From the NCBI GenBank assembly GCA_947625905.1, contig CANQQJ010000016.1, forward strand, positions 1 through 64,000: a DNA stretch of 64,000 nt, read 5' to 3'. Every line of letters begins with the position of its first letter. Position 1 is the stretch's first letter. This DNA is from an uncultured Clostridia bacterium. Its GTDB lineage: Bacteria; Bacillota; Clostridia; Monoglobales; Monoglobaceae. Positions 48,165 to 63,861 of this stretch are shown one piece after another. The translations under genes were made by a program, and so were the position numbers. The notes beneath the pieces are model-generated. The model was not told where the DNA came from, searched no databases, and was given only the letters and a program-made list of their open reading frames with translations.

Positions 48165-48199
48165 AATATTTCCTCCAAACTTTTTAATTATAATCAATT

Positions 48200-49936
48200 T
48201 TAGTTCACACTATTGTTTGTACCGCCTCCGCCGCTTGAGCTTCCGCCGCTGCTTGAGCCGCCACCGGAGCTTCCACCGCTGCTTGAGCCGCCGGAGCTTC
48301 CGCCGCTACGGGAACCGCCGCCGCTGCCGCTGCCGCTACGGGAACCGCCGCTTGAGCTACCGGAACTTGAACCGCTTGAGCTTCCGCTGCTGCCGCGGGA
48401 ACTGCCGCCGGAATTATTCTGCGAGGCCGCTGCCGCCGCGCGGCGTCTTTCGGCCTCTGCCGCGGCTGCCGCGCGGGCCTCCTGAACTCTTTTGACCTCG
48501 GTATCATACGCGACCTTCGCCGAGTCTGAAGCCTCCTTTGCCGCGTACAGCGAAGCGCCGCTGTCGCCGCTGAAATACTTTTGCTTGTATTCGTTGATCT
48601 TGTTCTGCAGCTCGTCGGCTTTGGCCTTTCGCTCCTCGCTGCGCTCCTTTGCGTAATCCTCGCCGCCCTCGGCTCCGTCCTCGGGCTTGAGGCTTATCGC
48701 AAACGCCCGGGCCCTCAATTCTTCAAGGGGCGAAAGCTCGGAACGCGCCGTGTTTTTTTCGGCCTCGTAACTCGCGTTGGCCGCCGCCCACGCGTCTTTT
48801 TGAGTCTGAGCGTCGCTGCCGTCGGGGATCGCCTCGACCGGATAATCCGCGTCGAGCTTTTTCTCAAGGCGCTTTATCTGGAGCTCGTAATTATCCTCGG
48901 GATTGATATAATTCGGATCCGAGGGATCGAGCTTGTTTATAAGCTCGTCCGTCACAGCGTCGGCGTTGAGCTTTTGGACAAGCTCTTTGTCTGGAGCCGA
49001 TATATCAAGCGATATTCCCGAATACTCCGGCGCCATCAACGGCGCGAAGTAATTGTATACTATGCCTCCCGCGGCTACCAGAGCTATCACAGCGGCAGCC
49101 GCAATATAAGTCGAGGGCTTTTGCAGCCGGCGTTTGACGACCGACGATGTTGGGATCACGTCGATCACCTCAACCGTGACGTTATCGTCGCCGCCGATCT
49201 TTTTCGCCGTGCTGACAAGTTCCTTGGCAGCCGCGGCCGGGCTCTTGTTTTTGTTCAGTATAGCCTCTATTTTGTCATCGTCCAGCATGTCGGTCAAGCC
49301 GTCGCTGCACAGCAGGAAGCGGGTCTTGTCAAGTATTTTAAGCGGCTCGATACCGCAATACGGCGTAACAGCGCCCATATCGGCGGGCACGCCCAAATAC
49401 CTCGTCAGAGCGCCCTTACCGTCGACCGCGTCAGTATGGTCCATTGATATCTTCTCGATCCTCCCGCGTTTTATCATATATACGCGGCTGTCGCCGACAT
49501 TGACGGGCATCACTTTGTCGCCAAAAGCGTAAAGCCCGCATATCGTGGAGCCCATTCCGTGGAGCAGCGGGTTAGCGTCCGCCGCGTAACTGATGCCGCC
49601 GCTGATCTCGTCGATCAACTTCTCAAATGAATTGACCGCGCTCCGGTAATCCGATGGCTTTATAATCTCTTTATATATGTCGCTTATCGCGCTCACTGCC
49701 ATAAAGGACGCTTCCTCGCCGCCGTTATGACCTCCCATACCGTCGCATACCGCAAAAAACGCGTTATTTTTCCCGTCAACGGCCAGAGGCTTCCCGTCGT
49801 TTGATTTGTTAAGATCATAAACATTTACATATTTATTTTTAATTTTCTGTCCGGGAACAAACAGGTTATCCTCGTTGTTGGCGCGCTTCATTCCTATGTC
49901 GCAGATCGCGCCGACTTCAAATCTTAACTTTGCCAT
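48200..49936 (-). CDS. PP2C-type protein phosphatase with membrane helix and Ser/Gly-rich extracellular tail
   Basis: 578 residues. The phosphatase domain (about 1-260) is complete: KRANNEDN, VCDGMGGHNGGE, NVGDSRVYMI, LCSDGLTDML and GGDDNVTVEV. It should be active with Mn or Mg. A membrane helix lies near residue 287. The extracellular part has helical, charged segments (about 310-500), then an 80-residue Ser/Gly-rich tail. It is the natural opponent of the kinase encoded at 41940. It shares architecture with the degenerate 44742 protein. SD AGGAG before the ATG. Confidence 0.93.
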   Translation of the reverse strand: MAKLRFEVGAICDIGMKRANNEDNLFVPGQKIKNKYVNVYDLNKSNDGKPLAVDGKNNAFFAVCDGMGGHNGGEEASFMAVSAISDIYKEIIKPSDYRSAVNSFEKLIDEISGGISYAADANPLLHGMGSTICGLYAFGDKVMPVNVGDSRVYMIKRGRIEKISMDHTDAVDGKGALTRYLGVPADMGAVTPYCGIEPLKILDKTRFLLCSDGLTDMLDDDKIEAILNKNKSPAAAAKELVSTAKKIGGDDNVTVEVIDVIPTSSVVKRRLQKPSTYIAAAAVIALVAAGGIVYNYFAPLMAPEYSGISLDISAPDKELVQKLNADAVTDELINKLDPSDPNYINPEDNYELQIKRLEKKLDADYPVEAIPDGSDAQTQKDAWAAANASYEAEKNTARSELSPLEELRARAFAISLKPEDGAEGGEDYAKERSEERKAKADELQNKINEYKQKYFSGDSGASLYAAKEASDSAKVAYDTEVKRVQEARAAAAAEAERRRAAAAASQNNSGGSSRGSSGSSSGSSSGSSSGGSRSGSGSGGGSRSGGSSGGSSSGGSSGGGSSSGGSSSGGGGTNNSVN

Positions 49937-49949
49937 AATACTCTCCTAT

Positions 49950-50228
49950 TTAATTCTCATTTTGTTTGCCCAATTCTTCGAGGCCGTGTTCAAGATTTTT
50001 TATAAAAATCTGACGCTCCGAATCATCAAGCCCGAAAAAGCTTATGTCTTCAATGTCCTCGTGATTAAAAAGCATCATGCTGTCCAAATCAAGGACTCCT
50101 TCGGGATAAGGACAGCCCATATAATCATATGTCTTTCCGTCTCCGTTTCTAAGCAACAGACCAACGATCATAATTCTTTTCTGCGCGTCCTTTAATTTGA
50201 CAACGCTTCCTATGGGAATTAATACCAA
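49950..50228 (-). CDS. DUF4176 protein, T7SS effector-associated (second copy)
   Basis: 92 residues from a TTG start 7 bases after AAAGGAG. A GTG at 50246 overlaps the SD and is less likely. The DUF4176 pattern is clear: IPIGSVVKLKDAQKRIMIVG, YDYMGCPYPEG and FNHEDIEDISFFG. DUF4176 proteins are regularly found next to LXG-type effectors of firmicute T7SS, where they may assist targeting of the effector or act as accessory factors. It follows the effector-like gene at 50258. Confidence 0.82.
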   Translation of the reverse strand: MVLIPIGSVVKLKDAQKRIMIVGLLLRNGDGKTYDYMGCPYPEGVLDLDSMMLFNHEDIEDISFFGLDDSERQIFIKNLEHGLEELGKQNEN

Positions 50229-50257
50229 ATAAATCACTCCTTTCACAAACTGATATA

Positions 50258-51493
50258 TTACATTGCCACATCCTTGACAAAAGATGTTCCCTTACCGATA
50301 ATTCCGCCGGGTTCCGGCTTATTGCCCATAATAACATCTTTGATCATATCTTTCGGCTCACCAAAAATGTTGGTTATCAGCGCTGTCGTTGAAGAAACAT
50401 TTTTATAAGCGTTCACGGTATGCGGTATTTCGTATGACAAAAGCTTCGCTTGATATGCGACTTCACTTTTTAAGTTTGTAATACTGTAATCCGTTCTCGC
50501 GAATATATCCCAGCTTCCCTTTACAGTAGTTTTCGCCTCGGACGCGACACCGGACCAATTGGCCGGAGTCGCCTGCTTGAGTTTGTCGATGCCGGTGGAA
50601 ATATTATAAACAGATGTGGCGATTTTTCCGACATCATACGCGCCGGTTCCTATTCTTTCTCCTATTTCCCGACCTATCTCTCCGTTTCCGAACACTTCGC
50701 CGATCGCGCCGCCGACACCACCTACAATAAATCCGGCTCCGTCTTTTAACAAATTGTTTTCCTCTATCTCAGCGGTTTTTCCGTCGGCAAGATTGGATGA
50801 TATGTCGAAAACATCTTTGGCTCCGCTGACAATATCATTTATTCCGTAGGCGATAGACGCTACCGCCAAAGGTGTAGATCCGCCGGCTGTTCCAATGATA
50901 GTGCCGATAGAAAGAGCAACCGCCGAGACACCCCCAATTACTTTGGCGGCCGCTTTTCCGTACTGCGCAATCGTATAAACAATTCCCTTATTGCTGTAAC
51001 TGTCTTTGATCCATGAGAAGCAGTCCTTTCCGGCCTGCACAACGTTGCCGAAGGCGCTTTTAACATTGTCCCAGAATGAAGTTCCGCCGGCTGCGCCGCC
51101 GGAGTTTCCTTTTCCGTTCAGCCACCCCAACGCATCTCTGCCCGCCGACGTCCACGCGCCTATAATGCTTCCGGCAACCGCGCCAAAAGCGCCGGGATTA
51201 ATCCCGTGAGGCGAAACATTCGCGCCGCTCAGCTTGTCCTCCGTGCTCGCGTATGCCCGCTGAATTGACAGAATAGCTGACGACATGCTCGTCGCGGATC
51301 GGGAAAATCTCTCTATTGACTCACTTATGCCGTCAAGAGACCTTTCTATCTGCGCCCTCGCGGGGAGCTGAAATCCTAAGCCGGATTTAACTCCGCTGAT
51401 CTCGCTTCTGATATTATTCAGTGTTCCGACAATGCTTCTGTATTCATCCGACGCGCCCTGAAGCCCGGCCGGATTTACCATTATTTCAGCCAT
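50258..51493 (-). CDS. T7SS effector-like protein B
   Basis: 411 residues from the ATG behind GGGAGGTGA. Residues 1-95 are a helical domain nearly identical in pattern to that of effector A: EYRSIVGTLNNIRSEISGVK, then SGLGFQLPARAQIERSLDG and the motif EDKLSG. The central part (about 95-300) is rich in Gly/Ala with hydrophobic stretches (KVIGGVSAVALSIGTIIGTA, GAGFIVGGVGGAIGEVFG) that resemble glycine-zipper or membrane-inserting segments. No known toxin domain is recognised at the C-terminus. Location among WXG100 and DUF4176 genes supports export. Its activity is unknown. Confidence 0.7.
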   Translation of the reverse strand: MAEIMVNPAGLQGASDEYRSIVGTLNNIRSEISGVKSGLGFQLPARAQIERSLDGISESIERFSRSATSMSSAILSIQRAYASTEDKLSGANVSPHGINPGAFGAVAGSIIGAWTSAGRDALGWLNGKGNSGGAAGGTSFWDNVKSAFGNVVQAGKDCFSWIKDSYSNKGIVYTIAQYGKAAAKVIGGVSAVALSIGTIIGTAGGSTPLAVASIAYGINDIVSGAKDVFDISSNLADGKTAEIEENNLLKDGAGFIVGGVGGAIGEVFGNGEIGREIGERIGTGAYDVGKIATSVYNISTGIDKLKQATPANWSGVASEAKTTVKGSWDIFARTDYSITNLKSEVAYQAKLLSYEIPHTVNAYKNVSSTTALITNIFGEPKDMIKDVIMGNKPEPGGIIGKGTSFVKDVAM

Positions 51494-51530
51494 CTGTGTA
51501 TCACCTCCCGAACAAAAAAACGCTACTCTT

Positions 51531-51806
51531 TTACTTCTTTTTCTTATAATACTCGGAGAGCTTGTCGATAAAGCTTTCGCGTTCAATATCGTTGTAGCCG
51601 ATAAAAAATACTTCTTTTATATCGCTCTGATTGAACAGAACCAAGTTCTCGCCCAAATTGCCCTCCGGATACGGCACTCCGCTATAATCATACTCGGTAT
51701 TCGAGCTTCTGTCGGTTTGTTTGATGCCGATGATCATAACTCTCTTGCTGCCGCCTTCCAGCTTGACAACAGACCCCGCGGGGTATAATCTGGATATTTC
51801 CTGCAT
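51531..51806 (-). CDS. DUF4176 protein, T7SS effector-associated (first copy)
   Basis: 91 residues from ATG behind GGAGGT. It shows the same pattern as the other copy: YPAGSVVKLEGGSKRVMIIG, YDYSGVPYPEGNLG and FNQSDIKEVFFIGY. It lies between effector A and effector B, so each effector has its own DUF4176 partner downstream. The C-terminus is Lys-rich (YYKKKK). Confidence 0.82.
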   Translation of the reverse strand: MQEISRLYPAGSVVKLEGGSKRVMIIGIKQTDRSSNTEYDYSGVPYPEGNLGENLVLFNQSDIKEVFFIGYNDIERESFIDKLSEYYKKKK

Positions 51807-51951
51807 AAATTAACCTCCAATTTTAAATATTAAAATAAACTCCGGCCGTTTCTCATTAACGGGCAAAAAAGTCCGCCAAAACCGTCGCCCATGCCTTTTC
51901 AAAACGAAAAGATCTTTCTTCCCGCGTTTGTAACAATCGTTGCCATATTAA

Positions 51952-52752
51952 TTACAAACTCCACAATACCCCGGGAAGCCACACTCTTCCTCCAATGCGC
52001 GAGAGTATGTTGTCGGCGTCAATATAGAAATCACTTATGACTTCGGTAAAACCTTTTGAGCAAATGCTCTCGGAAATAACGTCGAGTACTATGCCTGCAG
52101 CAACGGCTACCAAGGCGCCAACAGCTGCCGGTGCTCCGAGAGCAACGGCAGCAGCGGCCACACCTGCTCCGAAAACGATATCTATACCCGTTTCAAGAAC
52201 GACCTCTTGCCAAAACCTTGAATTTGTCAAGTCACCGCCAAATTCTTTCCAGTTTGAAATAACATTATTTATAGCCGTAATGACACCGCCGGTAAACTTG
52301 GCAACGCCTTCCCACACATCTTTTGCAAATTCGCTCACGACCGAAAACACTCTGTCTATCTGCGTTATGACTCCGCCTAACCCGCCGGGAATCAACACAT
52401 CCCAAAGAGTATCCCAAAAACTCTTTTGTTCGGAACCCGCGGATGAGCTGCCGCCGTCAACGCCTTTTGGGTTTACGCTGACGCCGCTCAACTTGTTTTC
52501 GGTATTCAAATATGTGCTCTGTATGGAGCGAAGAGCGTTTTCCATGCTGCGTGCGGAGCGCGAACTGCGCGTTATCGAAGCGCCGATCCCGTCCAGACTT
52601 CTCTCGATCTGAGCTCGGGTCGGAAGATCAAATCCGAGCCCGGATTTCACGCCGCGTATCTCGGAACTGATCCTGTCAAGTGTGCTGCATATACTCCGAT
52701 ATTCCGCCGAAACATGTCCAAGAGATGCGACTTTTACGCTTATCTCAGCCAA
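51952..52752 (-). CDS. T7SS effector-like protein A, C-terminus possibly frameshifted
   Basis: 266 residues from a TTG start behind AAAGGAGG. The N-terminal 95 residues match effector B closely (EYRSICSTLDRISSEIRGVK, then GLGFDLPTRAQIERSLDGIG and ENKLSG). The C-terminal region is hydrophobic (GAGVAAAAVALGAPAAVGAL), followed by VISDFYIDADNILSRIGG. Just before the stop, the +1 frame continues with a well-formed helix (SVASRGIVEFVINMATIV) to a stop at about 51899. The end shown (RVWLPGVLWSL) could therefore be an indel artefact. It is the first gene after the WXG100 cluster. Function unknown. Confidence 0.65.
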   Translation of the reverse strand: MAEISVKVASLGHVSAEYRSICSTLDRISSEIRGVKSGLGFDLPTRAQIERSLDGIGASITRSSRSARSMENALRSIQSTYLNTENKLSGVSVNPKGVDGGSSSAGSEQKSFWDTLWDVLIPGGLGGVITQIDRVFSVVSEFAKDVWEGVAKFTGGVITAINNVISNWKEFGGDLTNSRFWQEVVLETGIDIVFGAGVAAAAVALGAPAAVGALVAVAAGIVLDVISESICSKGFTEVISDFYIDADNILSRIGGRVWLPGVLWSL

Positions 52753-52819
52753 TATGTCCGCCTCCTTTGCTTTTTTCCGCGCTATCCCTCCGCGATGCGG
52801 AGGGATAAGTGCTTATTTT

Positions 52820-53134
52820 TTATTCAATTACTCCGGTCGGAAGGCCTCCGGCTTGCTCGTTTGCGGCACTTTCTGCCTGGTCGTACTGAGCCGCTATCTC
52901 GTTAAGGTCGGTGCAGTGCTCCTTAACTCTGTTGTAGAGAACCTGTCCATCCTGCTGGAGACTTGAAAATTTACTGGTATAAGACGAGCTTGCCTCACCT
53001 TTCCACGCGCTTCCGATGCTGCTTGCTATCTCAGCTATCCTGCTGATAATATTGTTAAGGTTGCCCGCCTCTGATTCAAACTGACTCGCGCCTGCTCTAA
53101 GCTGTTCTGTTGAAACTTTAATAATATCTGCCAT
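52820..53134 (-). CDS. WXG100 family protein (ESAT-6-like)
   Basis: 104 residues, two helices around the WxG turn (SAWKGEAS), with a C-terminal YDQAE resembling the YxxxD/E export signal. Such proteins are secreted as helical-hairpin dimers by T7SS. SD GGAGG before the ATG. Nearest WXG gene to the effectors. Confidence 0.9.
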   Translation of the reverse strand: MADIIKVSTEQLRAGASQFESEAGNLNNIISRIAEIASSIGSAWKGEASSSYTSKFSSLQQDGQVLYNRVKEHCTDLNEIAAQYDQAESAANEQAGGLPTGVIE

Positions 53135-53187
53135 TTTTTTATTCCTCCTGTAAAATTAAAATTCAAATTACGGTTTACTTATACGGC

Positions 53188-53481
53188 TCAACCCACGTTG
53201 GCTGTTGAAACATTTACTGACTCCGCCTGCTCATACTGCTGAGCGATCGTGTCAAGCGCCGCGGCATACTGATTGATAACGCCCTTATATGTTTCCATTT
53301 TCGCGTGGCTCATCTGAAACGCGTTCCTGAACGTCTCTTTTGCGTCGCCCTCCCACATGCTTGAGAGAGACTGCTCCGCGCTGCTCAGGTTTTCCAGGCT
53401 CGCCTGAAATTGTGTTCCGAGATTTCTGATCTCGTTTGCTTGGTTTTTAAGTTGTGATGATGTTACTTGAAATTCTGCCAT
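53188..53481 (-). CDS. WXG100 family protein
   Basis: 97 residues with the turn SMWEGDAK and C-terminal YEQAES, which fits the YxxxD/E-type export signal. It is helical throughout, with SD AGGAGG. Together with its neighbours it probably forms homo- or heterodimers exported through the EssC channel. Confidence 0.9.
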   Translation of the reverse strand: MAEFQVTSSQLKNQANEIRNLGTQFQASLENLSSAEQSLSSMWEGDAKETFRNAFQMSHAKMETYKGVINQYAAALDTIAQQYEQAESVNVSTANVG

Positions 53482-53543
53482 GATAAAAATCCTCCTATAA
53501 ATTTTTATATATTTGTAATTATAATTTATTTTTCGCCTTTTAA

Positions 53544-53837
53544 TTATTTAACCGTTGCCAAACTGCGCGCACGTTCCTCGGCGTTTTTCATATCCGTCGC
53601 TACCTTTCGGATCGTCGACGCAACCTTTCTGACATCAGAGGCCTCTCGAGTAATCTTATCCCGAAGCGTTTGTGATTTGCTGCAAAACATCTGTGAATTT
53701 TCGCTCTCCCAATTGCTCCTGATATTGTTTTCACATGACTCAAGACTGCCGGTCGCGACTCTGCTCAGCTGCTCGGCCAGCCTGTCAAGCTTGTCGGCGC
53801 TTCTCATTGCCCTCGAATATGTAAAATCAATATTCAT
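53544..53837 (-). CDS. WXG100-like protein with altered turn (WES)
   Basis: 97 residues from the ATG behind AAAGGA. The helical hairpin is like WXG100, but the turn reads NWESENSQ, with Ser in place of Gly. The C-terminal helix (ASDVRKVASTIRKVATDMKN) lacks a clear YxxxD/E signal. It may be a partner that dimerises with a signal-bearing protein. An N-terminal extension to 53936 has no RBS. Confidence 0.75.
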   Translation of the reverse strand: MNIDFTYSRAMRSADKLDRLAEQLSRVATGSLESCENNIRSNWESENSQMFCSKSQTLRDKITREASDVRKVASTIRKVATDMKNAEERARSLATVK

Positions 53838-53945
53838 AATAAATCGTCCTTTCTCAATAAAATATCGATTAATATTTAATACCTGTATTTTGGCCGCTCC
53901 GCTTAAAATCAAATACCACCCGGCGTACCGCGTCAAACAGCGGCT

Positions 53946-54260
53946 CTATGACAGCACATCCGACGGAAGCTCGCTTGATTCCGAAGCCGCTGTACTCTCT
54001 GTCTGTTGATACACGCCCGCGATCTTGCGCAGACTGTCTATATGTTTTTTCCAGCGCTCGGTAATTCCGCTGACATCCGTTTCTATCGATGAGTAAAGCT
54101 GTCTGTGCTTGTCCGCGGCTGCGCCGGTCCAATACGATCTCGATCCGTCCAGCGTGTTCTTTACCTGCTCAAACTGGTTCTTCAAGTTTCCGACCACAGA
54201 CTCGATCGCCTGGGCCTGCGCATTCAGCGCCTCTGTGCTCACTTTTATTCTGTCAGGCAT
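53946..54260 (-). CDS. WXG100 family protein
   Basis: 104 residues, turn SYWTGAAADK, C-terminal YQQTES and an acidic tail. SD GGAGGTGA. Helical, no membrane segment. The first helix (EALNAQAQAIESVVGNLKNQ) has the usual heptad spacing. Confidence 0.88.
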   Translation of the reverse strand: MPDRIKVSTEALNAQAQAIESVVGNLKNQFEQVKNTLDGSRSYWTGAAADKHRQLYSSIETDVSGITERWKKHIDSLRKIAGVYQQTESTAASESSELPSDVLS

Positions 54261-54280
54261 TTATTTCACCTCCGAAACGC

Positions 54281-54583
54281 TTAAACCTGAATTGACTGAA
54301 CTTCCCCCGCGACCGTGCGCTCGCAGGACTCATATTCTCTTTGTGCTTCTTCAAGCTTTTGCATAATTGTGTTAATTTCCTCAACAACCTCCATCAAGCG
54401 GTCACGGTCTGTTTGAGCGGAATTTACAAACGTGTCATGGGCGTCGCCCTCCCACATTGTGTTAAGACCGTTAATACCGTCAAACATCGAATCGATATTT
54501 GACTTCATAGAAGAGGCGATCTGTCCGATTTCCGACGCTGCGCTCCCTATCTGTGTTGTTGATACGCGAATTCTGTCTGCCAT
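54281..54583 (-). CDS. WXG100 family protein (EsxA-like)
   Basis: 100 residues, turn TMWEGDAHD, C-terminal REYESCE which fits YxxxD/E. It is directly after the YukD-like gene, the usual place for the primary EsxA-like substrate. SD AGGAGATGA before the ATG. Confidence 0.9.
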   Translation of the reverse strand: MADRIRVSTTQIGSAASEIGQIASSMKSNIDSMFDGINGLNTMWEGDAHDTFVNSAQTDRDRLMEVVEEINTIMQKLEEAQREYESCERTVAGEVQSIQV

Positions 54584-54605
54584 AAAATCATCTCCTGTTT
54601 TTATT

Positions 54606-54854
54606 TTAAAGCAACATAAGCCGACTGCCTGTCACTATTCCGTTTTCATTGAGAGTCAGATCCGGACGTATATTTTTCTTGCTGTCAATACAGCACAAAA
54701 GCAGCTGCCCGCTGTCTTTTACGTCCGGGTACCGTTCCTTTTGGCATATCATCACAGCTATTTCCTCAATAATAAGAGCCGTGGTCGTGTTTTCATCAAC
54801 ATTAAAATCATAGGTTTTCTCAAGCGCCGGCAAAAACACGTCAACAGTTATCAT
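54606..54854 (-). CDS. EsaB/YukD-like ubiquitin-fold protein
   Basis: 82 residues. The pattern ITVDVFLPALEKTYDFNVDE, then QLLLC and the C-terminal GIVTGSRLMLL match the beta-grasp YukD/EsaB proteins, which regulate or assist firmicute T7SS. It begins 6 bases after essC ends, behind GGGAGGT. Confidence 0.85.
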   Translation of the reverse strand: MITVDVFLPALEKTYDFNVDENTTTALIIEEIAVMICQKERYPDVKDSGQLLLCCIDSKKNIRPDLTLNENGIVTGSRLMLL

Positions 54855-54860
54855 AATAAT

Positions 54861-57800
54861 CTACCTCCCAAACATAGGTATCACATATCTCTTTATTTCC
54901 GTCTCGCCGACATCGGGAGCAATATATACAATTCCGGGCCTCATAATTTTGCTCTGCTCCGCAAAAGGCAGCGCCGAAAAATCAAATACGCGCTGTCCCG
55001 CGGGGTTTCCGCCGTGAAGGGCTCCCGCGGCGTCATCCAGCAAATTGGAAAAGGTCTTGTTGCCCGCCATTCGGTTCACATCATCAAGATCGATCTCGAA
55101 AATAAATGCTATATTATGGCCGCGACCCTTTTCGGTAATGTTTTCCATAAATCCGCGCATATCACCCTGTTTGACATTTTCGGAGTCATATATGGTTTTC
55201 ACATAGTCGGCAAGGTTGGTTATGAATATATATTTCTGGTCCATCTCCCGCATTTTTTCATATATTTCATCCTCGGTGCAGCCGTCTGATATAAGCTGCC
55301 TCTTGAGCTTGTTTCTCTTAACAAACTCCGGTATCATATTTTTCCAAAAATCGTATAAATCCTTATAATCCGTTATCCTGCGCATATCTCCGTCAAACTG
55401 TCCCGTTAGCTTGTTCTGCGTATCAATAACCGTAACGTCGGCTTTTTTAAGCAGCGCTGACGCAAGCATGATCTTGAACGTGTTGCTCTTGCCACTGCGG
55501 CTCCTGCCGGCAAGACAATAAGAAAATGTTTGGCTGAGATCCACGCTGCCGACTGACGCGTCGCGCATATTGTATCCGAACGGAAGTCTCCGTTTGTCCG
55601 CTGACAAACGAATAAACTCCTCGTTTTCTATCAATCCTGACCAGACCGGTTTTTCCGGAATAACCGGAATAGGTCTCGCTCTGCGACCCTTCCAATTCGC
55701 GTTGATTTTTTCGCAGATCTCGGTTATATGTTTGTTCCTCTCATAGTCGTCCGCGGCTCTCTCCGCGATAGCCGTCTGAAATTCCAGAAAGCTACCCTCC
55801 ACGTCCGTTATGCCGCGTCCTTTTATTCCCGCTTCGGGCAGAACCTCAAATTTCAGCGAATGCAAAACCTCGCCGTATTTGTATTTGTCGCCCATCTCAA
55901 GACAAACAACTTTTTTTATGTAGTCCGCGATCCGATTTGGCAGCTCGGATGATCCGAAGCCACCCGAAGAAATAATCAAAAATATCCCGTAAGCCGCGCC
56001 GTCACGGGCAAGCGCCATTACGTCCCTGTCGTACGCGTCGCCGGTTTTTTCGCGAAACGCGGCATAATTGTCAATAAAAATCAACATCGCAGGCATTTTG
56101 ACACCGTTCGCTTTTACGAATTGAGCATAGCTTCCGCTTTTGAGCACAGCCTTTCGCTCGTTTATATTCTTTTTCACCATAGTGAAGAACTTGCTTATTT
56201 TCTCTCCGTCATTTTCATACATGATGCCTCCCACATGCGGCAAAGGCTCGAATACCGAAAGCATCTTATTGCTGAAGTCCAGGGCATAAATATTGATATG
56301 ATCCGGAGAATATTTGTTTATCAAAGAAAATATCAATGTTTGCATAAATGTGCTCTTTCCGCTTACAACCGTTCCGCATATCGCGTGATGGCCGTCTCTT
56401 GATATATTTATGTTAAGCGGATATTGAGCCTGGTTAACGGGATCATCACAAAGTCCGACAATGGCCTCTATGCTCCAATCGCCAGAGGCCTGTCTGTCGC
56501 CCGGATCGTTGTTGTATCCCTCGATTTCCGCCAAAGTTATACTGTCACTCAGCGCGGGCAGCCACAGCTCCACATTATTTTCAAAGCCGTTGACTTCGGC
56601 GACCGTTTTCAAATATTCAACGATCGCGTCAAGCTGAGTTTTTTCTTTTGCCTCAGGCAGTTTCTTACCCGATGCCGCAGCCGAGTTATATATCTGCTTG
56701 ACCAAATCAGGATCGAAAAAATTAATATTTCCCGTCTCGGCATACCAAAATCTTATATAACCCTCAAGTCTGCTGCCATTATAAACTGAACGCGGATAGT
56801 CAAAATGCCGCTCTTCAATATTGCTGAAGATCTCACTTATAAGGAAATCAAGTGAGAGCGCAGGATTTTTAATAGCATCAATTACAGCAGGGCCTTCTTT
56901 TTCGAGTGTTTCTCCAATAATGTCCGACAGTTTTACAAGCCATTCCGTCTTTCGCGCGGTTTTGTTCCGTATTTTGGTTCGGTTTCCAACCAGAGCGGCC
57001 TTTCCCGTAGTGTCGATCATGGTCGCAAGAGATTTTTCCTTGCCTATTTCGTTCTCATTGTATTCGCCGCCGCTGTAACCCGACTGGAAAAGTTCGAATA
57101 TCTCGTCGTTTCCCACCTGCAGGTAACATCTGCCCGCTTGGGTAATATAAGCGGCGTCAGGCTTGTGAAGCATGTCGTTGCTGTCCTGCCTGTCCTGCAC
57201 TCTGAGACAAAGTTTAAATTTTGAGTTACTCCATATATTGTCATCAACTGTGCCGCTCGGCTTCTGAGTCGCCAAAATCAAATGAACGCCCAGACTTCGT
57301 CCTATCTGCGCCACGCTTATAAGCTCGCGCATAAAGTCGGGTTCTTCGCGTTTGAGCTCGGCAAACTCATCGATTATTATGATCAAATGCGGCACCGGCA
57401 TTTCGGCGTCATTGTTTTTTAGCAGCCTTGTGTAAGCGTTTATGTTATTGACGCCAAACTGTCCGAAAAGCCTCTGTCTGCGCTTGCACTCGCTTTTTAT
57501 CGAAACCATGGCTCTGTATATTTGGTTGCCCGACAAGTTGGTTATTTTTCCCGCCAAATGAGGCAGATCCGAAAACAGGTTTGCCATGCCTCCGCCTTTA
57601 AAATCAATTATAAAAAACGCTACGTCGATAGGACTGTACTCAATCGCCAAAGAAAGGATATATGTCTGAAGAGTTTCGCTTTTTCCCGATCCTGTTGTTC
57701 CGGCAACAAGCCCGTGCGGGCCGTGATATTTTTCGTGTATATCAAGATAGCATCCGACTCCGCCGGCTTTTATGCCCACCATAGCCTTCATTGAATCATA

Positions 57801-59834
57801 GGTCCTGCTCTTTCTCCATCTGTCATAAACTTTAAATTCTTCAAGAGAAGAGACATTGTACATCTCAAAAAAGTCCAAACCGTTTGGCAGTTCTCCGCCG
57901 CTCTCGGCCTGACTTACTCTGATATCCGATATACGTCTTGAAAACTCATCGGCAGCCTTCAGTGAGATCTCATCAAAAGCCACGCTGATCCTATCGTTAA
58001 CATTGGCTTGTATATCACATATTCCGCAGAACTCCTCATCATCCTGTATAATGTAATTACATTGATTGGGCAAATCGTCGCAGGTGTCCGCCAATATAAC
58101 GGCAGACACGCCGCAATCCACATCTTCATTAAAAATATATTTTGACAGAGCATCGCCTTCCAAAAGCTCGGTCGAATCGATTATCATTACATAATACGGT
58201 ATTTCAATTTTTTCTGAACTGCCGTTATTATTCTCAAGTCTGTTCCTGAGATGACCGCTCAGTTCATATATAACATCGCCCTTTTCGTTTTCATCAAAGG
58301 CAACATAACGAATTTTCCTGTCATTCGCCCAAGTATGAGGGATCCATTTTATAAAATTCCACGGTTCCGCGTCTTTTTTTCCGCTGTGTAAAAATACTAT
58401 TTTCACATCGGTATAACAATTGTTGGCCGCGATCTGGCAAACAATATTACGGGCTATTTTTATGTTTCGGCCGTTTTTACCCACAACTCCGACATACTTT
58501 CTTTTAAGCAGGTCAACGCATATCGGCACGTTTTTTAGTCTGGCATAACTTTCCGCGATTTTTCTCGGTTCCGATGCGAGGCTGTCGTTAATCAACGAAA
58601 ACTTTTCCTTCGGAGTTTTAATATTGACCTGAAACGGCACATCACCCAAGCCGATCCTCACACACAAAAAATCCTCATGAGTGACATTTCTGTTCCAAAG
58701 CTCAGATGTTTTTACAGAAAAAGAACAACATGTATGAGCGGATGGATACATTTTGTGCATTATTTTATAATTTTCATCATAAAGCACACTGATCTTATCC
58801 GCCATTTTGCGAAGATACACACCGTATGCATTTACTCTGTGCATTTCCTCCTCGCGCGCGACCTTTTTAGAATATTTTAAATTTACAAGAGCCCAGATCA
58901 CTCCTATCAGCGCTGATGAAACGGCTGTCACTATTCCGGTATACATAAATGGGCTAACTCCGCCCTGAGTATTCATCGCGCTGATAGCCAGCATACAGCC
59001 GAACACCATGGGAAGCGCCATAGTGAGTGATGGGCCGATAGTCAACAACATCGGCCGTTTTTCCATTCGACGCATCGATGGCGGCGGTTCTATCTCTATT
59101 TCTTCATCATTCAGCTTAAGCATATTTCTGGGCGAACGGTGGAATATCTTACTCGCATCATCACTAATATGCTTGGACGGATGTTTCTTTATTTTATTCA
59201 CGCTCGGTGAGACCTTGCGCAAGTCTTTCTCATTGACTGAAAATACATTGTCGAACGATAAGATCGCAAGAACATCATTCAAATATAGAATTTTTAATCC
59301 GAAAATATTAACGCACTCGCCGTATTTCAGCTCGGTTCTGTCGTAAATACGGTTGTAGCCGATAAAAACGCCGTTTATGCCCACGCCTTCGACATAGCAT
59401 TTTCCGTTTGAAAAATACAAATTAGCGTGCAGTTTTGACACAAGACCGAGGTTATCATATCGAATTGAATTAAGACGTCCGCTGCCTATTGTCAGCGTAT
59501 CCGAATTAAATCTGTATTTTAAAAATACAGGAAAATCCTCCTTTGACTCGCTTATAATTACAGATAACTGAACACCGTTTTTGGTTATGAGTCTGAGCAG
59601 ATCACCGTTTTGCAGCGTTTGATTAAAATAACTGTCCCCATTTTTAATTATACTGTAATTGTCTGTTTCAACAAATCTCCAGTTATCATCCAACACTTCC
59701 AGTTCAATTACAATATTCTCGGGCAAAGAAAACTCCTTCCCAGCAAGCATAATCCTATAATCGGAATTGCTGAGAACCGGAAGATTGAAGTATCTGAATG
59801 CTTTTTTTGTGTATACAGATATTATATAACTCAT
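54861..59834 (-). CDS. essC: EssC-type T7SS membrane ATPase
   Basis: 1657 residues. An FHA domain (about 105-200) is followed by two membrane helices (about 270-320). Three FtsK/SpoIIIE-like ATPase domains follow: D1 with GTTGSGKSET near 711 and Walker B LIIIIDEFAEL near 823, D2 with GTVVSGKSTF near 1158, and D3 with AGRSRSGKSNT near 1446. D2 and D3 have weaker Walker B motifs (LIFIDNYA and IFITNLAD). EssC is the motor and channel of T7SS and recognises substrates by its C-terminal ATPases. SD GGAGGG before the ATG. First gene of the T7SS cluster. The promoter is not obvious in the present orientation (see the inverted repeats at 59893 and 61246). Confidence 0.96.
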   Translation of the reverse strand: MSYIISVYTKKAFRYFNLPVLSNSDYRIMLAGKEFSLPENIVIELEVLDDNWRFVETDNYSIIKNGDSYFNQTLQNGDLLRLITKNGVQLSVIISESKEDFPVFLKYRFNSDTLTIGSGRLNSIRYDNLGLVSKLHANLYFSNGKCYVEGVGINGVFIGYNRIYDRTELKYGECVNIFGLKILYLNDVLAILSFDNVFSVNEKDLRKVSPSVNKIKKHPSKHISDDASKIFHRSPRNMLKLNDEEIEIEPPPSMRRMEKRPMLLTIGPSLTMALPMVFGCMLAISAMNTQGGVSPFMYTGIVTAVSSALIGVIWALVNLKYSKKVAREEEMHRVNAYGVYLRKMADKISVLYDENYKIMHKMYPSAHTCCSFSVKTSELWNRNVTHEDFLCVRIGLGDVPFQVNIKTPKEKFSLINDSLASEPRKIAESYARLKNVPICVDLLKRKYVGVVGKNGRNIKIARNIVCQIAANNCYTDVKIVFLHSGKKDAEPWNFIKWIPHTWANDRKIRYVAFDENEKGDVIYELSGHLRNRLENNNGSSEKIEIPYYVMIIDSTELLEGDALSKYIFNEDVDCGVSAVILADTCDDLPNQCNYIIQDDEEFCGICDIQANVNDRISVAFDEISLKAADEFSRRISDIRVSQAESGGELPNGLDFFEMYNVSSLEEFKVYDRWRKSRTYDSMKAMVGIKAGGVGCYLDIHEKYHGPHGLVAGTTGSGKSETLQTYILSLAIEYSPIDVAFFIIDFKGGGMANLFSDLPHLAGKITNLSGNQIYRAMVSIKSECKRRQRLFGQFGVNNINAYTRLLKNNDAEMPVPHLIIIIDEFAELKREEPDFMRELISVAQIGRSLGVHLILATQKPSGTVDDNIWSNSKFKLCLRVQDRQDSNDMLHKPDAAYITQAGRCYLQVGNDEIFELFQSGYSGGEYNENEIGKEKSLATMIDTTGKAALVGNRTKIRNKTARKTEWLVKLSDIIGETLEKEGPAVIDAIKNPALSLDFLISEIFSNIEERHFDYPRSVYNGSRLEGYIRFWYAETGNINFFDPDLVKQIYNSAAASGKKLPEAKEKTQLDAIVEYLKTVAEVNGFENNVELWLPALSDSITLAEIEGYNNDPGDRQASGDWSIEAIVGLCDDPVNQAQYPLNINISRDGHHAICGTVVSGKSTFMQTLIFSLINKYSPDHINIYALDFSNKMLSVFEPLPHVGGIMYENDGEKISKFFTMVKKNINERKAVLKSGSYAQFVKANGVKMPAMLIFIDNYAAFREKTGDAYDRDVMALARDGAAYGIFLIISSGGFGSSELPNRIADYIKKVVCLEMGDKYKYGEVLHSLKFEVLPEAGIKGRGITDVEGSFLEFQTAIAERAADDYERNKHITEICEKINANWKGRRARPIPVIPEKPVWSGLIENEEFIRLSADKRRLPFGYNMRDASVGSVDLSQTFSYCLAGRSRSGKSNTFKIMLASALLKKADVTVIDTQNKLTGQFDGDMRRITDYKDLYDFWKNMIPEFVKRNKLKRQLISDGCTEDEIYEKMREMDQKYIFITNLADYVKTIYDSENVKQGDMRGFMENITEKGRGHNIAFIFEIDLDDVNRMAGNKTFSNLLDDAAGALHGGNPAGQRVFDFSALPFAEQSKIMRPGIVYIAPDVGETEIKRYVIPMFGR

Positions 59835-59892
59835 TGTCCCTCCGCATATTTATCGGCATATATGAAAAAAATATACTATATGAGCAAATTTC

Positions 59893-59918
59893 TCGCAAAA
59901 CTCTAATGTTTTGCGAAA
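59893..59918. repeat. left inverted repeat of proposed invertible segment
   Basis: The core is TCGCAAAAC-TCTAAT-GTTTTGCGA plus two A. The 9-bp arms are perfect complements around a 6-bp asymmetric spacer, the shape of a tyrosine-recombinase crossover site. The exact reverse complement is at 61246-61271. It lies 59 bases upstream of the essC start codon. Confidence 0.85.
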
Positions 59919-59982
59919 TAAGGTTCAAAAATCAAATAGAACCGGACTTTCCATACAAATTTGACCAGAATATTTACGGTGA

Positions 59983-61056
59983 TTAAATTATTTCCTCAAA
60001 TTTTGCCATGCTGTTCCTTTTGTGTTCATCGAGAGAATGAGCGTAAATCCTTAATGTAACGGTCGCGTCGGCGTGACCCAGTATTTCGCTTAATGTTTTA
60101 ACATCAAATCCAAGCTCCAGCGCGCGGACACTGAATGTGTGGCGCAGAGTATGCGCGTTGGCATACCGTACACCGGCGCGCAATAATATTTTCTTATATT
60201 GATATTGAAATGTCCTCGTGTCCATTGCATGATAATTGGTATGAAGCACATATACGGATTGCCGCAGTTTCCACGCTGTTTTAAGTTTAATAAATAAACA
60301 TTGCGGTATGGGTATCTTGCGCTTAGAAGTCTCGCTCTTCGGCGGCAGTTCACGCAAGACGGATCTGCCGTCAACAGTCACTCGCTGCAGTGTTCTGTTT
60401 ATATACATATTCTTGTTTTTAAAGTCAATGTCGCTCCATTTCAAACCGCATACCTCGCCTATGCGAAGTCCTGCATAAAGGCATATCAAAATCCCTATAT
60501 CATTTGGATTTTTCTCAATATTTAGGGTATTTTCAATCTGCTTCTGTTCTTCTCGCGAGAACGCTGTAACCTCGTTACGCTTAATCTTAGGCAAGTCAAT
60601 ATCAAGCCATATAGGAGCGATATAATTTTCCTTATTGGCTTTTTTAAGCGTTTCACGTAAAAAAGAAAAAATTCCCTTAATTGTTGACGGAGATATGTGA
60701 GACAGAGAATTAACAAACGCTTGTATTATCTCACTGTTCATCTTACACAAAGCTATATTTCCGAAAAACGGCTTAATATGGTTTTTAATATATCTCTCAT
60801 AAATCTTGTACGTACCTATTTTTAATCTGTCTCCCTGTGATTTAAGATATTCTTCCGCCCACGAAACAAATGATATAGCTACGGGCTTAATTTTTTCCGA
60901 CTCAACTCGGCTTTTCATTTTCATCTTAACCTCGGTATATGATTTACCATATATTGACTTATATATAGCCTTGCCGGCAGCGTTATACGTCGTGATATAG
61001 CGGCCTTCCCATCTGTTATCTTTACGTTTATAAATGTTTTCACCTTTTCTCGGCAT
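59983..61056 (-). CDS. tyrosine recombinase, proposed invertase of T7SS promoter segment
   Basis: 357 residues from the ATG behind CAGGAGGA. A longer frame to 61152 lacks an RBS. The SAM-like core-binding domain spans about 60-145. The catalytic domain has the Arg in LYAGLRIGEVCGLKW, HTLRHTFSV, ILGHADATVT and the Tyr in RIYAHSLDE, so it should be active. It lies wholly inside the segment bounded by the two 26-bp inverted repeats, 65 bases from the left and 190 from the right. Its own promoter also lies inside. It could alternatively be the integrase of the mobilizable element at 61.5-64 kb, but true att sites would be direct repeats. Confidence 0.9.
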   Translation of the reverse strand: MPRKGENIYKRKDNRWEGRYITTYNAAGKAIYKSIYGKSYTEVKMKMKSRVESEKIKPVAISFVSWAEEYLKSQGDRLKIGTYKIYERYIKNHIKPFFGNIALCKMNSEIIQAFVNSLSHISPSTIKGIFSFLRETLKKANKENYIAPIWLDIDLPKIKRNEVTAFSREEQKQIENTLNIEKNPNDIGILICLYAGLRIGEVCGLKWSDIDFKNKNMYINRTLQRVTVDGRSVLRELPPKSETSKRKIPIPQCLFIKLKTAWKLRQSVYVLHTNYHAMDTRTFQYQYKKILLRAGVRYANAHTLRHTFSVRALELGFDVKTLSEILGHADATVTLRIYAHSLDEHKRNSMAKFEEII

Positions 61057-61099
61057 TTTCTTGTCCTCCTGTACCACTAATTTGACGGTAAATAAGTTA

Positions 61100-61105
61100 A
61101 TTATA
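61100..61105 (-). promoter_or_regulatory. -10 of recombinase promoter
   Basis: On the minus strand TGATATAAT is an extended -10 about 45 bases before the recombinase ATG. The -35 is weak (TGTAAA-like). Transcription would stay within the bounded segment and read toward essC through the left repeat. Confidence 0.55.
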
Positions 61106-61191
61106 TCAAAAAAACGAATGATTTTACATTTTGCACAAAAATATTTCGACAAAATTATGTATTTTAAACAAACAAAATCACCAAAAATTTA

Positions 61192-61220
61192 TTGTACTTT
61201 TTGTTCAATTATGCTATAAT
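61192..61220 (+). promoter_or_regulatory. strong outward promoter inside proposed invertible segment
   Basis: TTGTAC (61192-61197), a 17-bp spacer ending in TGC, and TATAAT (61215-61220): a consensus -10 with extended TG. It fires rightward through the right repeat, away from the T7SS, and meets the hairpin at 61286. If the segment inverted, it would point at essC with a leader of about 110 bases. Confidence 0.8.
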
Positions 61221-61245
61221 AAAACAAAATATGGTGAAATTTGTC

Positions 61246-61271
61246 TTTCGCAAAACATTAGAGTTTTGCGA
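61246..61271. repeat. right inverted repeat of proposed invertible segment
   Basis: The perfect reverse complement of 59893-59918, with the spacer reading ATTAGA. It lies between the outward promoter and the terminator hairpin. The region 61057-61549 holds no gene. Confidence 0.85.
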
Positions 61272-61285
61272 AAATTTTAGATATT

Positions 61286-61321
61286 AAACCGCTGATTTCA
61301 TAAGAGTGAGATTGGCGGTTT
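61286..61321 (+). terminator. terminator facing the outward promoter
   Basis: The RNA folds into a 16-bp stem with several G-U pairs (AAACCGCUGAUUUCAU against GUGAGAUUGGCGGUUU) and an AAGA loop, followed by UCUG and later a U-run. It would stop transcripts from the 61192 promoter in the present orientation. Confidence 0.6.
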
Positions 61322-61549
61322 TCTGTTGCTTTTTCAGGTAATATTCCGTTTATGTCAAAAAACAAACGATACATTTTTAAATTTGTAATGTAATAATAAA
61401 ACCTGCAATTTTTCTATTTACATCGTTTTATTTCTTATTTTTATTTAATTATATCAGATATATTCCGTTATAGCAATGGTTTTTGAGGATTTATTCTAAC
61501 ATTTCCATAAAATATATCGTGTATAATATGATAAAAGGAAGTGTTTATT

Positions 61550-61861
61550 TTGTATGAAAAAGAATTTTCACAAAGACTGGCTAAGCTCAGATTACAAAAA
61601 GGTGTTTCTGCGCGCGATATGAGTTTATCTATCGGGCAAAATCCCGGATATATTAATAATATTGAATCGGGTAAAGCCATGCCTTCGATGATGTGCTTTT
61701 TTTATATCTGCGAATATCTTAATATTTCTCCGAGTGAGTTTTTTGATATTAAATCCGAAAATCCCGAAAGACTAAATACTCTCGTTGAAGATTTAAAACA
61801 TCTTGACAGCAAACAGTTAGAAAATATCTCTGCAATCGTAAAAGACTTAATAAGAAAATAG
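61550..61861 (+). CDS. XRE-family HTH regulator
   Basis: 103 residues from a TTG at 61550, 8 bases after AAGGAAG; a GTG at 61541 overlaps the SD. The XRE HTH occupies about 8-60 (RLQKGVSARDMSLSIGQNPG, then YINNIESGKAMPSMMCF). The C-terminus is helical. A -10 TATAAT lies at 61522. Likely the regulator of the mobilizable element to the right; an effect on the switch is possible but unsupported. Confidence 0.85.
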   Translation: MYEKEFSQRLAKLRLQKGVSARDMSLSIGQNPGYINNIESGKAMPSMMCFFYICEYLNISPSEFFDIKSENPERLNTLVEDLKHLDSKQLENISAIVKDLIRK

Positions 61862-61902
61862 AATACGATTAATTTATTGCATTACACAATCGTGGACATT
61901 TA

Positions 61903-62160
61903 AAACCTCAATTTTAGGGCTTGACGGACGGGGATATAGGCGGTATTATTTTTGCTTTAAAACTCCGCATTTTTGCGCCGCTTACTGCTGTCTAAATGTC
62001 CATTGTGCGCATAAAAAAATAAGAGCATAACCGATTTGATTTTAGCGGTTATGCTCTTAGTATGAGTGGAACAATAGAACCTCATTTTGAGGGGTTATGG
62101 TATAAGTATATTGCTGCGGCTGTTTTTGGCTTTAAAACCAACGTTTTTACGGCGTTTGCG
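61903..62160. repeat. diverged direct repeat, non-coding
   Basis: Two segments of about 80 bases (near 61900-61985 and 62080-62160) share the order AACCTCAtTTT, AGGG, TTTTTxGCTTTAAAAC and TTTTTxCGxCG with many mismatches. Each begins with a small CCTCA/TGAGG-type stem. They lie after the VLP gene and may be part of the element's 3' untranslated or transfer region. Confidence 0.35.
62020..62059 (-). terminator. terminator of mobC-relaxase-VLP operon
   Basis: A 14-bp stem (TAAGAGCATAACCG with its complement) is followed on the minus strand by seven T. Confidence 0.85.
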
Positions 62161-62165
62161 GAGCC

Positions 62166-62521
62166 CTATTTTTCCACTCTCGATCTGTATTTCTGCTGAT
62201 ATTCCGCTTTCTGCCGCCGAAGTATGGTTTTCTTGCATTTTTCGCAATTTTTCGCCTTGTTTCCCATATAAGAAAACTCCTTGCCGCAAATCACACAGGT
62301 TTTGGTGTTTTTCGGCGCATCAGTTTTATGTACAGGTCATTGTCAAGAGGAAGAACGGCGTTTCTGAACCATTTGCACAGCAGGGAATATGAGATAGTCT
62401 GCGGACATACGCAGGTCTCGCCGTCATCCAGAAGTACACAGTTGCCGCTGTCGTAATTGCAGCACTCTTTTTTGATGAGGGCTTTAACTCTCTTTAAGTC
62501 AGCGGGGTCGTATCTTATCAT
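62166..62521 (-). pseudogene. cysteine-rich VLP-domain protein, frameshifted
   Basis: The open frame from 62521 gives 76 residues (IKKECCNYDSGNCVLLDDGE, then CVCPQTISYSLLCKWFRNAV) and stops at 62291. The -1 frame continues without a stop with the second zinc-knuckle half of the family (CVICGKEFSYMGNKAKNCEK, then CKK) to a TAG at 62166. The break lies near 62315, at an A5 run. Proteins of this kind sit beside relaxases in Firmicutes mobile elements. It follows the relaxase with a 4-base overlap. Confidence 0.75.
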
Positions 62522-63861
62522 AATTCAATATCGGGCGGTTTCCGCTGCTTTTTCGGCTTATTGATTATCATGTCAACATTTCGCTTGATCGTATCATATT
62601 CTTGAACCGCCTTCCTTGCCTTTTTGTATTCGGAATACAGATGATTCTTTTGCTCGGTCAATCTTTCAAGCCGCTTGTTAAGGCTGTCTACCGTCGGCAG
62701 TTTTCCGTCTGTCAGTGATGCCGTAAGCTGCTCGGCCGCACTCTCGTACAACATGATCTCTCGTCTGTGTTTTTCATAAAACGCGGCCTTGTTTTTGGCT
62801 TTTTTGTATGCCGAATATACGGGCTTCATTTCCCGATAGGTCATAATGTCTTTTCTCAGGATATGTATATCCTTGATTTGTTTTTCGACGGATTTCAGTT
62901 CATCGGCTGTCTTGTCAAAACCGCTGTTCAGTTCTTCGATCTTGGATTGCAGTTCGCTATATGTTCCTATCCCGTGTGTATTCAAAAAGCTCATGGTCTT
63001 AGCCGCATTTTGCAGATTATATTTTTTAGCCCAATATTCATAGCCCTTACTTTCCTGCGCCTTAATGCTGTTTTGAATATCAATAAGCAGGTTAATTTGT
63101 TTTCCGTTGTTCAATGACGGCTTTTTAATTTTTGATTTGTTTAAAATCCTATCCGTAATAGCCTCGGCGGTATAATTGCCGCCTAAAGTTTTTGCACGCG
63201 TATATCTTTCCTGACCCGCAGCACGGAACGAAATATATTTGCCTTTCTTGATCTCATATCCGCTTTGTTCCATAAGTCTGAGAAAATCATCAAAGTCTCT
63301 CGCTCTCGGAATAACCGTGTCAATAGTTCGTTTAAGTTTTGCTTTCCAGCTCGTACCGTTCTTTTCGGCGGTATATTCTTTATAGCTCTTGCCTTTGTCT
63401 TTTCCGGCCTCTATGGTGGACAATCCGTATTCTCTGCACAGTCGGTCGCCGGTACGTTTTGCATAGTTATACCATTGTTTATTTATGTGAATATGCTTAT
63501 AATCTACAAAGCTGACATCGTTGCATATTATATGGTTATGGATATGATTTTTGTCTATATGTGTTGCAAGTATATATTCATATTTGCCGCCAAGAATCTC
63601 ATCCGCCCACTTCCTGCCGATTTCGTGCGCCTGTTCCGGAGTTGTCTCTCCCGGCTCAAACGCTTGTATGATATGTCTCGCAAGATGTTTTCCTTTTCCG
63701 CCGGCGAGTCTGCGCGTTACATCAAATTCAATATCCGCCGTTTTCGGAGTACAGGCAAAAGAATATATCAATATGTTGCCGTCGGTTTTTTCTTTGCTTG
63801 TAATATAGTCAATAGCGGTTTTTAATGTAGTGTTAATAGTATGGTTCTTTGTAATCGCCAT
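62518..63861 (-). CDS. MobA/VirD2-type relaxase
   Basis: 447 residues. The N-terminal nickase domain has the metal-binding His triad in HIDKNHIHNHIICNDVS (about residue 115) and the region AIDYITSKEKT containing the candidate Tyr. The C-terminal half is a long coiled coil (about 285-440). It nicks oriT and pilots DNA for conjugation, using a helper element's channel, since no coupling protein or T4SS is in view. The N-terminus overlaps the MobC-like ORF. Confidence 0.9.
   Translation of the reverse strand: MAITKNHTINTTLKTAIDYITSKEKTDGNILIYSFACTPKTADIEFDVTRRLAGGKGKHLARHIIQAFEPGETTPEQAHEIGRKWADEILGGKYEYILATHIDKNHIHNHIICNDVSFVDYKHIHINKQWYNYAKRTGDRLCREYGLSTIEAGKDKGKSYKEYTAEKNGTSWKAKLKRTIDTVIPRARDFDDFLRLMEQSGYEIKKGKYISFRAAGQERYTRAKTLGGNYTAEAITDRILNKSKIKKPSLNNGKQINLLIDIQNSIKAQESKGYEYWAKKYNLQNAAKTMSFLNTHGIGTYSELQSKIEELNSGFDKTADELKSVEKQIKDIHILRKDIMTYREMKPVYSAYKKAKNKAAFYEKHRREIMLYESAAEQLTASLTDGKLPTVDSLNKRLERLTEQKNHLYSEYKKARKAVQEYDTIKRNVDMIINKPKKQRKPPDIEL

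Follow-up and report, generated by a model that had tools for sequence, protein, structure and literature searches.

The window, a 64,000-nucleotide stretch of DNA from an uncultured Clostridia bacterium, contains a segment (59893–61271) that is very probably a self-contained ON/OFF inverton controlling a type VII secretion system (T7SS), and that appears to be OFF in this assembly. An initial annotation had proposed a recombinase-driven invertible promoter, OFF here, with the T7SS downstream. This proposal is supported by the finding of both orientations among homologous segments, by a conserved outward promoter, by a terminator on the OFF side and by a second T7SS operon, in genome G051. Our confidence is slightly lower than it would otherwise be because the comparison with locus L033 extends to one flank and because the promoter at the second T7SS locus, L068, is not significant alone.

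Organization of the segment

The features of the segment and its surroundings are listed by position in the window.

36054–54854, minus strand: remaining T7SS cluster (YukD-like, WXG100 proteins, DUF4176, PP2C phosphatase, Ser/Thr kinase, FHA-ABC protein and others)
54861–59834, minus strand: essC, first gene of the T7SS cluster (TIGR03928, 1085.5 bits against a cut-off of 778.4; FtsK/SpoIIIE domains)
59893–59918, plus strand: left inverted repeat, core site on the operon side, perfectly complementary to 61246–61271 (spacer TCTAAT at 59902–59907)
59962–59979, minus strand: candidate arm-type site CCGTAAATATTCTGGTCA, 3′ of the recombinase gene (1 mismatch to GTCA-N8-GTCA)
59983–61056, minus strand: tyrosine recombinase of 357 aa, proposed invertase (Pfam Phage_integrase and SAM-like domains)
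61071–61088, minus strand: candidate arm-type site CCGTCAAATTAGTGGTAC, 5′ of the recombinase gene (2 mismatches to GTCA-N8-GTCA)
61100–61105, minus strand: candidate extended −10 of the recombinase's own promoter, TGaTATAAT (read by eye)
61192–61220, plus strand: outward promoter TTGTAC-N17-TATAAT with an extended −10, directed away from essC now and toward essC after inversion
61246–61271, minus strand: right inverted repeat, core site on the terminator side (spacer ATTAGA at 61257–61262 on the plus strand)
61286–61321, plus strand: terminator faced by the promoter now, OFF side (terminator scan and fold)
61541–61861, plus strand: XRE-type regulator on the far side of the terminator, in the direction in which the promoter now points (Pfam HTH_19)

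In the proposed mechanism, the recombinase would act on the two 26-bp core sites and invert the 1.38-kb segment, including its own gene and the outward sigma-70 promoter. In the present orientation this promoter would fire into the right-hand terminator, leaving essC and the genes behind it without a transcript from it, and because the promoter faces a terminator the T7SS is predicted to be OFF. Inversion would turn the promoter toward essC, with transcripts crossing the left repeat and carrying a leader of approximately 100 nt (ON). As the apparent promoter of the recombinase gene lies inside the segment, the recombinase would be expressed in both states. We infer that the window copy flips at some rate, that essC transcription depends on this and that the GTCA motif described below acts as an arm-type site.

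The repeats had been described as perfect 26-bp inverted repeats with 9-bp arms around an asymmetric 6-bp spacer, and this was borne out. Complementarity between 59893–59918 and 61246–61271 is perfect, and in each core site the palindromic arms TCGCAAAAC/GTTTTGCGA flank the spacer. That a tyrosine recombinase gene is enclosed by the repeats, upstream of essC, was likewise confirmed by the sequence and by Pfam. When extended in the repeat search, the repeats reach 33 nt at 94 %. The chance expectation for perfect 26-bp pairs in 5.5 kb is approximately 3e-9 with equal base frequencies, a figure that AT-richness raises somewhat. A gap of 58 bp separates the left repeat from the essC ATG.

The segment is present in one orientation in its own assembly, and just two sites in that genome, the window pair, are within 3 mismatches of the 27-base site. 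A looser arm pattern found one further site pair, in contig C33, enclosing a recombinase that is 71 % identical. A master recombinase serving many sites is therefore unsupported for this genome, which has only these two site pairs. Single weak core sites in G012, G024 and G039 were not counted, since controls with the reversed pattern also matched once in G001 and once in G009.

Among the T7SS genes, four small cluster proteins match PF06013 (WXG100) above the cut-off, and the YukD-like protein (54606–54854) scores 27.5 bits with PF08817 (cut-off 27). Several of the T7SS families of the window recur in G051 and G319. At the far end of the cluster (32177–36138), macro, vWA-like (weak), HD, PARG and ADP-ribosylglycohydrolase domains form an ADP-ribose-handling set.

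The recombinase and candidate arm-type sites

The recombinase matches PF00589 (4e-25), and R198, K240, H302, R305, H328 and Y338, which we take to be the catalytic R-K-H-R-H-Y of tyrosine recombinases, are invariant across 34 sequences. In the AlphaFold2 model (mean pLDDT 88.1, pTM 0.67) a beta-beta-beta-alpha N-terminal domain is predicted, followed by core-binding and catalytic domains. The best PDB match in both sequence and fold is Tn1549 Int, which matches the protein beyond the N-terminus. For the N-terminal domain no PDB relative was established, the VIA-align rows barely covering residues 1–56. An AGGAGG is found upstream of the ATG. As evidence for the candidate promoter of the recombinase gene itself, GATATAAT is present within the 5′ spacer of six of the nine near loci. 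The window also encodes a second tyrosine-recombinase-like protein (5626–6963, 445 aa), which is 25 % identical to the G051 recombinase.

Because of the predicted N-terminal fold and the match of the remainder to the Tn1549 integrase, we propose that GTCA motifs on either side of the gene are candidate arm-type sites of a heterobivalent recombinase. With at most one mismatch, GTCA-N8-GTCA was found in the 5′ spacer of 44/57 family loci (shuffle mean 1.06, maximum 4) and in the 3′ spacer of 37/57 (shuffle mean 0.88, maximum 5), and it flanks the recombinase gene on both sides in 29/57. The motif is often CCGTCA-N6-NNGTCA and lies approximately 30–40 bp upstream of the start codon or shortly past the stop. 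The 5′ site of the window, with 2 mismatches, is outside the 44 loci.

The outward promoter and terminator

The initial annotation placed a strong promoter at 61192–61220. An extended −10 promoter is present there and is kept in L033, but 'strong' overstated it. The extended −10 is perfect (TGcTATAAT) and the spacing is 17 bp, while the −35 (TTGTAC) matches at 3/6 positions. It was overlooked by the standard scan and its score is reached by 6/60 shuffles, which is not significant alone. The window promoter gains support from L033, in which the two hexamers and their distance are preserved and the spacer differs by one change.

Across 58 repeat-bearing family loci, near-copies among them, 51 have an outward sigma-70 promoter at ≤3/60 shuffles, just within the repeat that adjoins the 5′ end of the recombinase gene, and in 45/58 the end of the −10 is 18–40 bp from the repeat. 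The seven loci above 3/60 are L064, L068, L080, L117, L125, L134 and the window. As neither the window promoter nor that of the second T7SS locus, L068 (10/60 shuffles), is significant alone, the case for them rests on conserved position. The comparison supports the outward promoter as a conserved component of the cassette. The 58 loci are the automatic repeat matches minus eight duplicates and L137, with L037/L038, L033, L035, L036 and the window added by hand; L037/L038 were missed by the automatic inverted-repeat search because their 6-bp spacers differ.

On the side now faced by the promoter, the right repeat hairpin and the terminator (61246–61330) fold at −35.4 kcal/mol (fold z −7.7). 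The homologous hairpin of L033, in which the T run is longer, lies opposite the operon. Of the 58 loci, 33 have no terminator-like hairpin on either side, 15 have one only where the promoter faces, 9 only on the opposite side and 1 on both. One-sided hairpins are no more frequent than independence predicts (both sides, 1 seen vs 2.8 expected), and this distribution fits an operon on one side with a stop on the other without being significantly one-sided. To the right of the XRE gene, a MobA/VirD2-type relaxase is encoded at 62518–63861; this gene and a 130-aa neighbour in L040 (1823–2215) are perhaps relics of a mobilizable element beside the switch.

Both orientations in homologous segments

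Comparison of homologous loci had been suggested as a check on inversion, and both orientations were found, with both flanks in the L037/L038 pair and with one flank in L033 and the window. L037 and L038 belong to a near-identical ICE carried by G004 and G006, which are of the same genus as the genome of the window. A 1,384-bp recombinase segment is found in opposite orientations at L037:8868-10251 and L038:8469-9852 (pairwise comparison), and the two copies are identical at 1383/1384 positions when one is flipped. In the 20-kb stretches compared, the flanks are 99.97 % identical over 8,890 bp and 99.91 % identical over 8,491 bp. The inversion end points fall in short repeats, AATATTTTA-N6-GACATA, with differing core spacers (TTATAT vs CTTTAA); identical spacers seem not to be required for inversion in this pair. 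The ICE recombinase is 48 % identical to that of the window, and the ICE also encodes a T4SS coupling protein and PrgI, TraG-like, TrbC-like and NlpC/P60 proteins. In one state the promoter is directed at an ECF-type sigma factor gene and a DUF4367 gene, and in the other at a hairpin.

The closest homologue of the window recombinase (86 % identical) is that of L033/L063, which has repeats of the same kind. The right flank of L033, which includes the terminator, aligns colinearly with that of the window cassette (69.65 % identity over 257 bp), whereas the segment itself is reversed. The L033 promoter is directed at an operon (VTC domain, DUF4956, Cthe_2159 carbohydrate-binding) starting 60 bp from the repeat, and by this comparison the window would be OFF and L033 ON. 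The terminator-side flank alone is clearly homologous and the operon-side flanks are not clearly so; this pair may reflect insertion of the cassette in opposite directions rather than inversion. Weaker swapped-flank pairs (L134, L072, L088 and others) were left out of the argument. Judged from where the outward gene starts, among nine near relatives L063, L066 and L035 look ON, the window, L064, L067, L068 and L070 look OFF, and L069 is ambiguous.

The cassette family and its targets

A search with alignment A1 found at least 80 loci in the genome collection and 18 in the viral collection. The 94 loci examined, near-copies included, comprise the 80 genome-collection matches listed, 8/18 of the viral matches and 6 from a genome search. 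The initial annotation held that loss of the repeats in relatives keeping the recombinase would speak against a switch. Flanking inverted repeats (score ≥16, ≤700 bp from the recombinase gene) are retained in 61/94 loci, and this check did not refute the switch; the other 33 gave no pair, a point against it. For 600 mismatched pairs the 95 % point of the score was 12, the 99 % point 17 and the maximum 140; the cut-off of 16 is just below the 99 % point, and a few weak matches may be chance. The 61 include L137, where a 466-bp perfect inverted duplication (9301-9766 / 11175-11640) surrounds a homologous recombinase and ends in a core-like site; it was dropped from later sets.

Arms and spacers vary between family loci. 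The second cassette of the window's own genome (L035:15182-16577, in G000:C33) has 33-bp perfect repeats, and its promoter is directed toward a gene for a 314-aa protein and radical SAM genes; it appears to be ON, unlike the T7SS copy. Its arms are near-identical to those of the window cassette, and its spacer is TCTATG vs TCTAAT in the window. The differing spacers could prevent the two cassettes from recombining with each other, although the ICE pair speaks against matching spacers as a universal requirement.

Among near relatives, the adjacent first genes include those for MinD-like and T2SSE ATPases (Tad-pilus-like) in L064, SLH and leucine-rich-repeat proteins in L069, cohesin/dockerin/SLH proteins in L036/L070, radical SAM proteins in L035 and a STAS-APH protein in L034. 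From these gene contents, several targets in near relatives are cell-surface systems, as in known invertons.

One cassette (repeat TTCGTAGAGTACATTACTCCACGAA) occurs in six records of different genera (L099, L101-L105) in a single orientation, with left flanks 99.97-100 % identical over 3 kb and right flanks 94-100 % identical over the aligned part. In G004 (L034:5760-6200 and the end of L047) a cassette is seemingly split by a transposase gene (weak DDE_Tnp_1 match) into promoter and recombinase parts, at contig ends. A single core site in G007 (L049 around 1501; G007:C11:56292-56319) joins flanks resembling the terminator-side and operon-side flanks of G004, as might be expected of a site that lost its cassette or never received one.

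On balance, we lean towards regarding these loci as a large class of portable switch cassettes, present in Clostridia and Enterococcus and absent from the papers searched. Its members would consist of a core site, an outward promoter, an arm-type site, an integrase-type tyrosine recombinase, a second arm-type site and a second core site. Such cassettes would have been captured before whole machines, most simply twice independently by T7SS operons, and also by Tad-pilus-like, S-layer/cohesin and leucine-rich-repeat genes and by an ICE sigma-factor operon. Whole secretion systems would thereby be turned into bet-hedging traits, and recombination between cassettes of one genome may be prevented by their differing spacers.

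A second T7SS operon and the rarity of the switch

Locus L068 (CANQKM010000004.1, uncultured Clostridia, genome G051) encodes a recombinase 68 % identical to that of the window, between 45-bp perfect repeats. A plus-strand T7SS operon starts 129 bp past the 3′-side repeat, and encodes PP2C, a kinase, EssC, WXG100-like proteins and homologues of the DUF4176 protein and the FHA-ABC protein. The cassette is likewise oriented OFF, and inspection by eye, though not the hairpin script, showed a hairpin on the side away from the operon.

The two T7SS operons differ in the first gene behind the cassette (essC in the window vs PP2C in G051), and their EssC proteins are 48-49 % identical. The G051 EssC has a nearer relative in the G319 protein (64 %), and no such recombinase was found in 35 kb of G319. 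The two T7SS-linked recombinases are not sisters in a tree of 17 rows, where they need two changes, and a single clade for them was rejected (log-likelihood difference 134.9, p-AU 2e-82). The simplest reading is that T7SS operons captured the cassette twice.

An EssC match at E ≤ 1e-60 was found in 28/391 sampled genomes of the class, that of the window included. No recombinase of this family was detected near EssC (tblastn, E ≤ 1e-5) in any of the 28 other EssC genomes (27, G319 among them, and G001, the contig of which stops within EssC); the stretches covered were at most 20 kb long, or shorter where a contig ended. As none of the 28 holds the recombinase in the stretches examined, the switch, on this sampling, is rare and no standard part of this T7SS. 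An EssC-like match at L135 was dropped as a T7SS candidate (25 % over 332 aa of a 1112-aa protein).

Alternative explanations

The initial annotation saw no strong essC promoter. A weak promoter-like site (TTGCGA-17-TATATT, 59898-59870) is present near essC, partly within the left repeat. Promoter-like sites on both strands occur at chance frequency in 59700-62200 (10 found vs 10.6 expected) and in excess in 40200-59900 (59 found vs 31.1 expected). Because of the weak site and this excess, transcription of part of the cluster may be independent of how the segment is oriented. Both observations agree with a reading that we consider unlikely, namely that the segment flips but essC has its own or internal promoters, so that the switch tunes or barely affects secretion, or that the main target is the XRE gene. 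The XRE gene is past the terminator in line with the promoter now, and XRE homologues are found near the recombinases of L135, L119 and L120, with a remnant in L047. However, a strong hairpin separates promoter and XRE gene, L033 in the opposite orientation has its operon 60 bp from the repeat and no XRE gene on the other side, and G051 has a T7SS operon at the corresponding place.

A minimal mobile element, with an integrase between attL and attR and no switch, is a very improbable explanation. The recombinase is integrase-like, with Tn1549 Int closest among solved structures, the unit is found before unrelated operons, and at the single G007 site the two flanks adjoin, the appearance expected after deletion or without insertion. 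Against this, the sites are inverted, spacer included, and not direct; the 85 % direct-repeat match of the ends arises from the palindromic arms. In a mobile element the promoter kept in place would be without a role. The attachment-site reading was rejected as the main explanation on the inverted repeats and on the homologue, which underwent exact inversion with its flanks unchanged.

It is scarcely credible that the palindromes are bidirectional terminators or operators with incidental symmetry since, although both repeats can form 11-bp hairpins and the terminator scan picks up the right one, the inverted identity is perfect and includes the asymmetric spacer, the arrangement recurs with different arms and spacers, and the ICE-pair inversion end points are within repeats.

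Significance and comparison with known systems

A switch of this kind bears on the timing of T7SS deployment in commensal Bacillota. A flipping promoter would turn a secretion machine of approximately 24 kb into a bet-hedging trait, on or off in individual cells. It could explain cells with intact yet silent T7SS genes, and its state would be readable directly from metagenomic reads. As the recombinase and layout are recognizable, a search for the cassette leads to other switchable systems, such as Tad-pilus-like genes, S-layer proteins and an ICE sigma factor.

To our knowledge, there is no report of a T7SS controlled by an invertible promoter. None under an inverton or invertible promoter was found among the titles and abstract openings listed in the searches of accessible journal papers. 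The T7SSe/T7SSj systems (kinase, PPM phosphatase, FHA), as described in the abstract and most of the Results of Garrett et al. 2024 (PMC11217815), resemble the window system, which has EssC, a YukD-like protein, several WXG100 proteins, a kinase, a PP2C phosphatase and FHA; those parts of the paper do not mention control by inversion. In the part of PMC11898584 available, ESX-1-associated phase variants in M. tuberculosis arise by homopolymer indels, a different mechanism.

The accessible parts of the inverton literature, to which PMC10939037 also belongs, describe gut-bacterial invertons and the Clostridioides difficile switches (flgB, cmrRST, pdcB/C). These share with the window segment a promoter between short inverted repeats, a site-specific recombinase and ON/OFF control of surface or regulatory genes. 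The window segment departs from them in containing the recombinase gene and in having a T7SS as its target. Unlike Tn1549/Tn916-type integrases, the window recombinase is not shown to be surrounded by a transposon, and on the comparative evidence it inverts rather than excises.

The H segment of Salmonella carries an outward promoter, and Hin is a serine recombinase with an enhancer, whereas the window enzyme is a tyrosine recombinase with candidate arm-type sites. According to the parts of the papers available, invertases near invertons are generally not positioned for regulation by them (PMC11892184), and a recombinase within the invertible segment is occasional, Hin being the example (PMC5903667); the H segment likewise has its recombinase gene within the invertible segment (PMC5903667). 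From these comparisons, the segment appears to be a known kind of switch, with a Hin-like layout and a tyrosine recombinase, and its target, a T7SS, apparently unreported as such, was found here at two operons.
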